A stretch of 58,847 bases of DNA from a virus, in IMG/VR virus record IMGVR_UViG_3300009124_000013, positions 1 to 58,847 of that record; one strand, written 5' to 3'. This document shows, in pieces, positions 15,192-18,648 of this stretch (its first letter is position 1; every line of letters starts with the position of its first letter). Both the position numbers and the translations under genes were made by a program. The notes under the pieces are model-generated. The model saw nothing but the letters and a program-made list of their open reading frames with translations. It was not told the DNA's origin and searched no databases.

Positions 15192-15902
15192 ATGGCATTA
15201 CCTACATTAGAAAACCCTACATATGAGTTGATTGTACCATCACTCAATAAGAAAATTAAATACAGACCATTTACAGTTAAAGAAGAGAAAGTATTGTTGA
15301 TTGCATTGGAATCTGAAGATAACACTCAGATTGCAGATGCAATTAAAGGTATCATTGAAGCATGTGTTAATACAGGTTCTAGGCGAACCTTAAAGATAAA
15401 TGAATTAGCAACATTTGATATTGAGTATTTGTTTCTCAACATTCGTGCAAGGTCTGTCGGTGAAATTATTGAATTGATGCTAACTTGCCCCGATGACAAT
15501 GAAACTGAAATTAAGGTTTCTATTAATATTGAGGACATTCAAGTTCAATTTGACGAAGAGCATGAAAGCACCATTCAGTTGACTGATGATCTTTGGATTG
15601 AAATGGGATATCCAGGAATTGATTCCTTTACTGGGGATGATGACAACATTGATGATACATTTGAAATCATTGCAAAATCAATTAAAAAGATTTACAATGA
15701 AGAAGATGTCTGGGATAGATCTAGTGCAAAACAAAGTGAATTTGTTGACTTTGTTGAGAATATGAACAGCAAGCAATTTGCTAAGATTCAAAAGTTCTTT
15801 GATACTATTCCTACTTTGAAGCATACTATCAAAGCGAGGAATCCAAAAACAGGTTATGAATTTGACTATACTGTTGAAGGTCTGTCTAGTTTTTTCGTAT
15901 AG
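15192..15902 (+). CDS. gp26: Baseplate hub protein gp26 / tail assembly chaperone
   Basis: A 236-aa protein of the T4_baseplate (gp26) family, with the typical opening MALPTLENPTYELIVPSLNK, KYRPFTVKEEKVLLIALES and LTCPDDNETEIKVSINIEDI. GGAG precedes the ATG. It ends in a T-TTT-TTC heptamer just before the TAG stop, in the frame expected for -1 slippage. The protein made by normal termination would correspond to a G-type chaperone and the shifted one to a G-T-type fusion. The gene right behind encodes a tape-measure-like protein, which fits. Confidence 0.9.
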   Translation: MALPTLENPTYELIVPSLNKKIKYRPFTVKEEKVLLIALESEDNTQIADAIKGIIEACVNTGSRRTLKINELATFDIEYLFLNIRARSVGEIIELMLTCPDDNETEIKVSINIEDIQVQFDEEHESTIQLTDDLWIEMGYPGIDSFTGDDDNIDDTFEIIAKSIKKIYNEEDVWDRSSAKQSEFVDFVENMNSKQFAKIQKFFDTIPTLKHTIKARNPKTGYEFDYTVEGLSSFFV

Positions 15903-15925
15903 CCCTCTTCCAAAATAGTTTGGAA
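15890..15925 (+). promoter_or_regulatory. Candidate programmed -1 ribosomal frameshift site
   Basis: Slippery heptamer T-TTT-TTC at 15890-15896 (codons AGT TTT TTC GTA TAG in the gp26 frame), 11-base spacer, then a 7-bp hairpin TTCCAAA (15908-15914), loop ATAG, TTTGGAA (15919-15925). Slipping by -1 continues into CGT ATA GCC and the open gp51-like frame to 16084. Confidence 0.75.
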
Positions 15926-16084
15926 AACTATTACAGAACTAACTTTGCATTAATGCAATATCATAAGTACAGTTTGACTGAACTTGATAATCTTATTCCA
16001 TGGGAAAAGGAAATCTATATTGCATTACTCAAGCAATATCTGGAAGAGGAAAAGAAAAAGATAGAAAGAGAAAGTAATAGATGA
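15896..16084 (+). CDS. gp51: gp51-like frame, probable -1 extension of gp26
   Basis: The -1 frame encodes RIALFQNSLENYYRTNFAL then MQYHKYSLTELDNLIPWEKE and ends in a Glu/Lys-rich helix (62 residues, stop 16082-16084). The YSLTELxxxIPWExxIY motif is the signature of gp51/tail-chaperone extensions. The first ATG (15953) lies after the conserved NSLENYY segment and has no ribosome-binding site, so an independent start would truncate the domain; fusion to gp26 (about 297 aa) is more likely. The stop overlaps the next ATG. Confidence 0.75.
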   Translation, partial: RIALFQNSLENYYRTNFALMQYHKYSLTELDNLIPWEKEIYIALLKQYLEEEKKKIERESNR

Positions 16085-18648
16085 ACGAAAAGCAACTAGG
16101 AGAAAGAGAATATACTGACGCCATAATGTCAATTTATGGCGCTAATCCTGTTGCGTCTATTGCGGGAGCATATAAATCAAAAGAACAAAAGCAGTTACCA
16201 GAAAATCCAGAAACTGAAACTGTTCCTACAGGATCTTTATATAAAGAAACTCGTGGGTTGTTACTTGCTGCAAGAAAGAATCTTAAACTTAAGAAGACAA
16301 TTCTTGCTTATGAAAAGAGAAGGTTTAAACAATTACAAGTAGATCTTGGGGATTCTCTTAAAAAACCAAAGGGGAAGGATAAAAAAAAGGAAGATGAGGA
16401 ACTTTTAAAGATTCCAGAAGATCCCGCCAAGATGTCCATTAGAAAATGGATGCGAGATCTTGCTAGAAAGTTACTACAAAAGATTAGACAGGCGATTGGT
16501 AATAAGATTAAACAGTTTCTTAAGAAACGTTTTCTTAAGAAATATAGAAAACTATCTCCCGAAAAGAGAAAGAGATTAAGAGATAGGAAGAAATTCTTTG
16601 ATAAACAGAAAAGGCGCTTTAAACGTTTTACGAATAGGGGTGGATTTAGAGGTGCTATTCGCAGAGGTCTTGGTAGATTTGCCACTAAAATTATAGGCAA
16701 GAGAAATGCTGCTAGATTTAGATTATTCAGACAGACAGGTGGAGTTAGAGGTGCAGCATTAAGGGGGGCAAGAAGAGCATTTTTCAAAGGAGTTAGTGTA
16801 GTAAAGGGTATTCCTGGCACTATTAGATCTCTTAGGGGTCTTGCTGGAATGGTAAGTACTCCGATACTTGGAACTGCTAGAGAAGGAGCAGGGGCAGTTG
16901 CTACTAAAGCGGGTAGAGGATTTCTTGCAAAAACTGCAAGAAATGCATTAGTAGGTACTTTAGGAAAGGGCGGCACTAAAACAGCATTGAAATTTGTTAA
17001 AAAATTTATATCTCCTCTTATTAAAAAGATTCCTATTGTTGGCGCTCTTGCTGACTTCTTATTAAATGTATTTGTTTTTAAAGAATCACCAGGGAAATCT
17101 GCATTTAAAGCAGTTGCTGCTGGATTGTTGACATTTGTTGGGGGCGCTCTTGGTAGTGTTGTTCCTGGTGCTGGAACTTTTATTGGTGGACTTCTTGGTG
17201 GAATGGCAGGTGATGCCTTGGGTGGTCTATTGTATGATGCTATTTTTGGTGGCGGAAGTGCGTCTACTCCTGAGGGTACAACTGTTCCTGCAGCAAAGGA
17301 TGGAATGAAAGTTGGGGCAAAACCTCAACTGGTTCTTGTGGGCGAGGGGGGTGAAGAGGAGTGGATTATTCCAAAAAGTAAACTTGCTTGGTGGTTGGGT
17401 GCATCTGAATCAGCATTAAATCTATTCACCTTTGGTGCTTTTCCTGTATTCAGTGCAGTAAGAGCATTACTTTCTGCAACAGGAGCAGGGGGAAGTGTTA
17501 TACCTGCAGATGTTCCAGAGGGAAGTTCTGAAGGTGCAAAACCTAAGGTAGATGCAAAGAAACCAGAATCAATTAACAGTAATTTTGGAGACACTCTTTT
17601 TGGATTCTTCAAGAAGGGAATTGGAAAACTTAAAGATTCGTTTGTTGGAGTTCTCGATAAAGTAAAATCATTCTTGCCTGATCTTAGTGGACTGCCTCTT
17701 GAGGTGAAAGTTGCATTGAAAGGCATTGCTACTATGGCTGGTGGCGGAATGGTTATGTTGGTTGACTTCTTACTGGGGGGTGGAGGTGCTAAAGCAGCAA
17801 CCACTGGTGGTGGAAATACACCTGCCAATGCATTGAGTGGCGGTGGATTCGAATATACTGACCCTGATAGTAGCACTACTATCACTGTGACCAGTCAGTA
17901 TGGAATGAGAACCCATCCAATTTATGGAACTGCAAAAATGCATGGGGGAACAGATATTTCTGCTACTGGAGGAACTCCATTGAGAGCAATTAGTGATGGT
18001 GAGGTAGTTGATTCGGATGCATTAGGAAATAAAGGATGGGGTAACTTCTTAGTATTTAAAGATGATCAAGGAATTTTCCATCTTTATGGTCACATGCAGG
18101 GTGGATATAAGAGAGGTGGACAAGTAAAGAAAGGTGATATTATCGGTAAAGTTGGCAGTACTGGAGCATCGACGGGTCCTCATTTACACTGGGAAGCAGG
18201 AACTGGATGGAATGGTGGTGTTATTACTGGTAAGTTTGATCCTCTATCAAGATACACTGCAGAGCAACCATTCTTTACCAAAAAAGCAGAAGAAACTCCA
18301 GGTGATGATGAAAAATCAATAGCGTCAACACCTCCACCAGCAGCAACACCACCAAAACAACAGATGGGTCGTGCTGCTGCTAAAAGAAGATCGGACTCTG
18401 CAGCAAGGGCAAGACGAGAAGCACGAGCAGAAGCACCTCCAGTAGCACCTCTAAATAAAAAAGATACTGCTAGTGCTCTAGAAGAATTTGGCACCATGGA
18501 TGAAGATAATAATCAACAAGTTGCTGTTATTGAAGTTCCTGTCACTAGAACTGAGTATATTCCTATGCCACTTCCCCTTAGTACTGCTGGGGCAAGATCT
18601 GTAAGTAACACTCCTGCTTGGGGTCAGGGTGCAGTATTAGGAGCGTAA
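16081..18648 (+). CDS. Tape-measure-like tail protein with M23 peptidase domain
   Basis: 855 aa. Order: charged N-terminus with a very basic helical segment (about 95-240), a Gly-rich hydrophobic segment (about 345-390, GGALGSVVPGAGTFIGGLLG), the tape-measure-like motif LVLVGEGGEEEWIIPK (about 420-435), then an M23 lysostaphin-type endopeptidase domain at about 600-730 with zinc residues His621, Asp625 (MHGGTDI), His701 and His703 (PHLHWE), and a basic Ala-rich tail. It cuts peptide cross-links of peptidoglycan, presumably during DNA entry. Position right after the tail chaperones supports a tape-measure role; T4 gp29 similarity is not evident. Confidence 0.75.
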   Translation: MNEKQLGEREYTDAIMSIYGANPVASIAGAYKSKEQKQLPENPETETVPTGSLYKETRGLLLAARKNLKLKKTILAYEKRRFKQLQVDLGDSLKKPKGKDKKKEDEELLKIPEDPAKMSIRKWMRDLARKLLQKIRQAIGNKIKQFLKKRFLKKYRKLSPEKRKRLRDRKKFFDKQKRRFKRFTNRGGFRGAIRRGLGRFATKIIGKRNAARFRLFRQTGGVRGAALRGARRAFFKGVSVVKGIPGTIRSLRGLAGMVSTPILGTAREGAGAVATKAGRGFLAKTARNALVGTLGKGGTKTALKFVKKFISPLIKKIPIVGALADFLLNVFVFKESPGKSAFKAVAAGLLTFVGGALGSVVPGAGTFIGGLLGGMAGDALGGLLYDAIFGGGSASTPEGTTVPAAKDGMKVGAKPQLVLVGEGGEEEWIIPKSKLAWWLGASESALNLFTFGAFPVFSAVRALLSATGAGGSVIPADVPEGSSEGAKPKVDAKKPESINSNFGDTLFGFFKKGIGKLKDSFVGVLDKVKSFLPDLSGLPLEVKVALKGIATMAGGGMVMLVDFLLGGGGAKAATTGGGNTPANALSGGGFEYTDPDSSTTITVTSQYGMRTHPIYGTAKMHGGTDISATGGTPLRAISDGEVVDSDALGNKGWGNFLVFKDDQGIFHLYGHMQGGYKRGGQVKKGDIIGKVGSTGASTGPHLHWEAGTGWNGGVITGKFDPLSRYTAEQPFFTKKAEETPGDDEKSIASTPPPAATPPKQQMGRAAAKRRSDSAARARREARAEAPPVAPLNKKDTASALEEFGTMDEDNNQQVAVIEVPVTRTEYIPMPLPLSTAGARSVSNTPAWGQGAVLGA

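Follow-up and report, generated by a model that had tools for sequence, protein, structure and literature searches.

The window, i.e. the whole analysed stretch of 58,847 bases from a viral record, in all likelihood carries a cyanophage-like tail assembly chaperone locus of the T4 type, in which -1 slippage of a minority of ribosomes on the heptamer T-TTT-TTC would yield a gp26-51 long form (Table 1). A -1 frameshift of the lambda G/G-T type, joining gp26 to a gp51-like extension, had been proposed in an earlier note on this DNA, and the comparison with related loci strongly supports this reading, which is very probably right. In the proposed course of events, the majority of ribosomes would terminate at the TAG at 15900, so that gp26 (TAC-N) is released as the short chaperone. 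The remaining ones, a minority, would shift back by one base on T-TTT-TTC, probably aided by the GAAGG 9 nt upstream, and would read on in the -1 frame as …SSFF-RIALFQNSLENYY…. The predicted product of slippage is a long chaperone of 297 residues (TAC-NC) with a helical gp51 domain.

Table 1. Features of the putative tail assembly chaperone locus (positions in the window).
Feature	Position	Strand	Basis and remarks
gp26-like gene, short tail assembly chaperone (TAC-N, predicted)	15192-15902	+	236 aa plus stop; PF12322 T4_baseplate 4.6e-68, phrog_150 3.4e-71; hhalign to T4 gp26 prob 99
GAAGG, Shine-Dalgarno-like element, candidate stimulator	15876-15880	+	9 nt before heptamer; putative role
Slippery heptamer T-TTT-TTC	15890-15896	+	in phase in 47/47 heptamer-bearing clusters
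Zero-frame stop TAG, one codon past heptamer	15900-15902	+	sequence
-1-frame extension, gp51-like domain, predicted C-terminal part of long chaperone (TAC-NC)	15896-16084	+	62 codons plus TGA; phrog_634 8.8e-27; coding pattern without start codons; helical model
7-bp hairpin, lineage-specific, role doubtful	15908-15925	+	present in window; no consensus structure among relatives
Next gene, 855 aa, M23 peptidase domain, possible tape measure	16081-18648	+	PF01551; ATGA overlap with extension

Genomic setting and junction sequence

The window contains T4-like genes, including those for gp53-like and gp48-like proteins, a DNA end protector, tail tube, gp26, hub and lysozyme, together with the cyanophage-typical genes for transaldolase, 2OG-Fe(II) oxygenase and PhoH. 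Its gp26 shares about 40-52% identity with the gp26 proteins of phages of Synechococcus and Prochlorococcus, which number in the hundreds, and about 60% with that of the nearest environmental contigs reaching the junction. A tail tube-like gene (phrog_45, PF23849) is located immediately 5' of the gp26 locus. The gene on the other side had been called tape-measure-like in the earlier note; this description was drawn from position only and is not upheld by the comparison of the 855-aa product with T4 gp29, which revealed no similarity.

The gp26 ORF ends with AGT (15888-15890) TTT TTC GTA TAG, and T-TTT-TTC lies in zero-frame phase at the position that had been noted before. The 62-residue open -1 frame was likewise found as described: it runs from the last base of the heptamer to 16081 and is closed by TGA (16082-16084), which shares bases with the start codon ATG of the following ORF. 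Besides its match to the gp51 family phrog_634, the extension gave a weak match to phrog_150, the gp26 family, at the distal end of the latter. The first ATG of the -1 frame, at 15953, is indeed situated past NSLENYY, and TTG 15920 is the only alternative start codon before it in this frame of the window.

Conservation of the slippery heptamer

The comparison set comprised 94 loci with junction and heptamer, taken from annotated phages as well as viral contigs and including the window, which were grouped into 47 clusters at 80% nucleotide identity; the two distant loci L089 and L093 stand outside this count. The alignment of the junction across relatives, proposed in the earlier note as a check, showed that T-TTT-TT[C/T/G] is in phase with the zero frame throughout the 47 heptamer-bearing clusters; the zero-frame stop was found 0, 3, 6 or 24 nt beyond the heptamer. 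The first Phe codon was TTT in 47 of 47 clusters, compared to 62% elsewhere in gp26. The codon preceding it (D, S, N or T) ended in T in every cluster as well. For independent lineages this would correspond to a probability of about 4e-11; since the lineages share ancestry and are not independent, these codon counts overstate the significance. The same site was present in 16 further loci obtained with a second query (L101-L116) and in two vibriophage loci.

These data bear on two other explanations of the frame break. The window is a viral contig from a metagenome and the frames change at a run of T, so that an error of sequencing or assembly could be suspected, but the same arrangement occurs in dozens of lineages that are independent of each other, among them genomes of isolates, with both frames under coding constraint. 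The comparison thereby refutes an error, the probability of which is practically nil. Slippage of the RNA polymerase on the T run, joining the frames at the level of transcription instead of translation, would fit those lineages in which the run reaches 7-8 T. Transcriptional slippage, however, usually requires longer homopolymers, whereas most lineages have six T only, interrupted by C, and the run always begins at the third codon position, the phase required by tandem -1 tRNA slippage. Transcriptional slippage is thus considered extremely improbable compared to slippage of the ribosome.

The earlier note had named loss of the heptamer without loss of the downstream frame as an observation against frameshifting. 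This combination was found for the Pseudomonas phage Cygsa01 (L089) and the Serratia phage 3M (L093), from which the T6 heptamer is missing. A -1 frame resembling gp51 but lacking the T6 heptamer was seen at the gp26 end of L089 (near 2238), in L093 (near 2262) and in L099 and L100 (near 2760), i.e. in Pseudomonas phage Cygsa01 and in Serratia phage 3M-like phages (Ackermannviridae). In L093, no start codon precedes the conserved part either. Since L089 and L093 keep the gp51-like frame without the heptamer, the domain can be expressed otherwise in these phages.

Coding character of the -1 frame

Within 162 nt past the heptamer, the -1 frame contained a stop codon in none of the 40 gap-free lineages, while each of the other two frames was interrupted in all 40. 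From +15 to +32, the differences over the pairs compared amounted to 1088/728/1608 at the first, second and third codon position of the -1 frame, which is the pattern of a coding sequence. No ATG, GTG or TTG occurs before +57 in 14 of the 40 lineages, and these 14 showed the same trend in this segment (181/132/278). Counted from the heptamer, the first ATG of the -1 frame is found at +63 in the window and in most cyanophages; it follows SLENYY and falls within the conserved FALMQHHKY. Since the first helix in the model of the extension spans residues 9-23, a start at this ATG would cut the helix.

Alternatively, gp51 could be a short gene of its own, translated by internal initiation or by termination and reinitiation after the gp26 stop. 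It is annotated in this way in GenBank records, and in the window TTG 15920 could begin a product of 54 aa. Furthermore, TAATG or TGATG directly follows the heptamer in some lineages (L042-L047, L087, L091 and L092), for which frameshifting and reinitiation are therefore both possible. A separate gene is nonetheless difficult to reconcile with the 14 lineages lacking a start codon before +57, in which the sequence upstream of this point is nevertheless under coding constraint. The annotated starts are also inconsistent: rather than at a conserved ATG, as the earlier note would have expected for a separate gene, they scatter over residues 3, 4, 5, 7, 9, 17, 19 or 20 of the extension and use ATG, TTG or GTG. 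Moreover, a separate gene predicts neither the in-phase heptamer with its synonymous constraint nor the correspondence of T4 gp51 to the full fusion, and is therefore rated as highly improbable.

The preferred reading of a frameshift product corrects a widespread misannotation. The cyanophage gp51, listed as a short separate gene with arbitrary starts, very probably represents the C-terminal portion of gp26-51 made by frameshifting. Sullivan et al. (2010) remarked that gp51 of cyanophage and marine vibriophage origin lacks the first ~200 residues of T4 gp51 (PMC3037559). These missing residues are accounted for if gp51 is the C-terminal part of the fusion.

Relationship to T4 gp26 and gp51

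The virtual fusion of gp26 and extension aligned with T4 gp51 over nearly the full length (hhalign probability 96.6-97.8), while T4 gp26 aligned only with residues 10-237 of the fusion (probability 99). The control T4 proteins gp27, gp28, gp25, the N-terminal part of gp29, UvsY and UvsW reached at most 0.4. For the extension alone, compared to residues 208-244 of T4 gp51, the hhalign probability was modest (35%). As the fusion aligns with the whole of T4 gp51 and its N-terminal part with T4 gp26, gp26 and gp26-51 can be regarded as the predicted short and long tail assembly chaperones. Accordingly, T4 gp26 is homologous to TAC-N and T4 gp51 to the whole fused product. In contrast to the single locus of the window, genes 26 and 51 of T4 are separate and lie on opposite strands, and the end of T4 gp26 (GAG TTC TTT GAG) is without a slippery site. 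It follows that T4 encodes the short and the long form separately, whereas in the group of the window a single locus most likely gives rise to the two forms.

For structure prediction, gp26 and the extension were modelled as two separate chains, the gp26 model having a pLDDT of 84.8. The HK97 tail assembly chaperone 2ob9 was the second and third PDB match to this model (probabilities of 0.85 and 0.57), but with E-values of 0.57 and 0.68 these matches are not significant. Among predicted viral structures, the gp26 model matches baseplate hub proteins of T4-like phages. A weak profile match of gp26 residues 81-145 to MtrB (TRAP) chains in the PDB with an E-value of 1e-4 was rejected, as no single stretch passed and the fold search gave no support.

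Candidate stimulatory elements

A Shine-Dalgarno match of at least 4 bases ending 8-10 nt 5' of the heptamer was found in 43 of 47 clusters compared to 17% of control windows. The conserved Glu-Gly explains part of this signal, while the purine motif is kept also where Lys, Arg or Gln replaces Glu. In dnaX of E. coli, -1 frameshifting is stimulated by elements of this kind. The GARGG 8-10 nt upstream is a candidate stimulator here as well and probably aids the frameshift.

Downstream of the heptamer, the window contains the hairpin TTCCAAA (15908-15914), ATAG, TTTGGAA (15919-15925). As the earlier note had stated, it has 7 bp and starts 11 nt after the heptamer; the stimulatory role suggested by its presentation finds no counterpart in a conserved structure among the relatives, since a search with alifold across 40 lineages for a conserved downstream RNA structure revealed none. 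The hairpin is only mildly unusual, being equalled in 1.2% of shuffled sequences and in 2.5% of the 40-nt stretches of the window. Taken singly, 16 of 44 lineages showed a folding z below -2. For the window, z was -0.2 in the 60 nt downstream and -2.07 in the wider stretch 15885-15960.

As a tentative and somewhat doubtful proposal, the chaperone frameshift of T4-like phages might rely on an internal GARGG ending 8-10 nt 5' of T-TTT-TTY instead of a conserved downstream structure, and some lineages might combine slippage with, or replace it by, reinitiation at TAATG or TGATG. If true, these stop-start lineages would make visible how the two separate T4 genes could have been reached from a frameshift. 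Both the conserved upstream element and the overlap of stop and start codon in some lineages may be new and should be taken as leads rather than results.

Comparison with known tail assembly chaperones

Tail assembly chaperone genes of T4-like phages were reportedly named by Vladimirov, Gautam and Davidson (Virology 2022;566:9-15, doi 10.1016/j.virol.2021.11.003), frameshifting being apparently conserved in several T4-like groups and T4 using genes 26 and 51. The remark in the earlier note that no description of such an arrangement was known for this group is therefore superseded, as these genes were identified in that work and later papers cite it. TAC-N and TAC-NC of T4-like phages are the same genes as those of the window locus, with apparently the same mechanism in several T4-like groups. 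Since the chaperone frameshift of T4-like phages is already published, the window locus belongs to a known kind. Passages citing Vladimirov et al. 2022 mention one short and one fused gene in some T4-like phages (PMC10274946) and poly-T slippery signals in T4-like TAC-N genes (PMC12846349). The work is also cited for T4-like phages with two genes in place of a frameshift. A literature search on gp26/gp51 frameshifting returned unrelated phages only.

In lambda, the tape measure is bound by gpG as well as by the frameshift product gpGT, the T domain of which brings in the tail tube protein, and a fixed ratio of gpG and gpGT is needed (PMC5009743). By analogy, both forms predicted for the window would cover the tape measure protein and bring tail-tube subunits to it. 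The lambda locus likewise comprises a short protein and a -1 frameshift product upstream of a block of tail genes, but its slippery heptamer differs from T-TTT-TTC, and the likeness described here is one of arrangement. In the Pseudomonas phage Adele (Vandenendeviridae), a conserved poly-T motif, GTTTTT, is located at the TAC-N end and the -1 frame is open in all genomes (PMC12846349). The Adele locus thus resembles that of the window in both respects; it belongs to a different phage family, and the likeness is again one of arrangement.

In the GenBank record of Citrobacter phage Moon (L095, 21-1659, minus strand), gp27 and gp28 are joined as a 'GT-like fusion protein'. In contrast to this annotation, the T4-like equivalents of G and G-T are gp26 and gp51 according to the present analysis.
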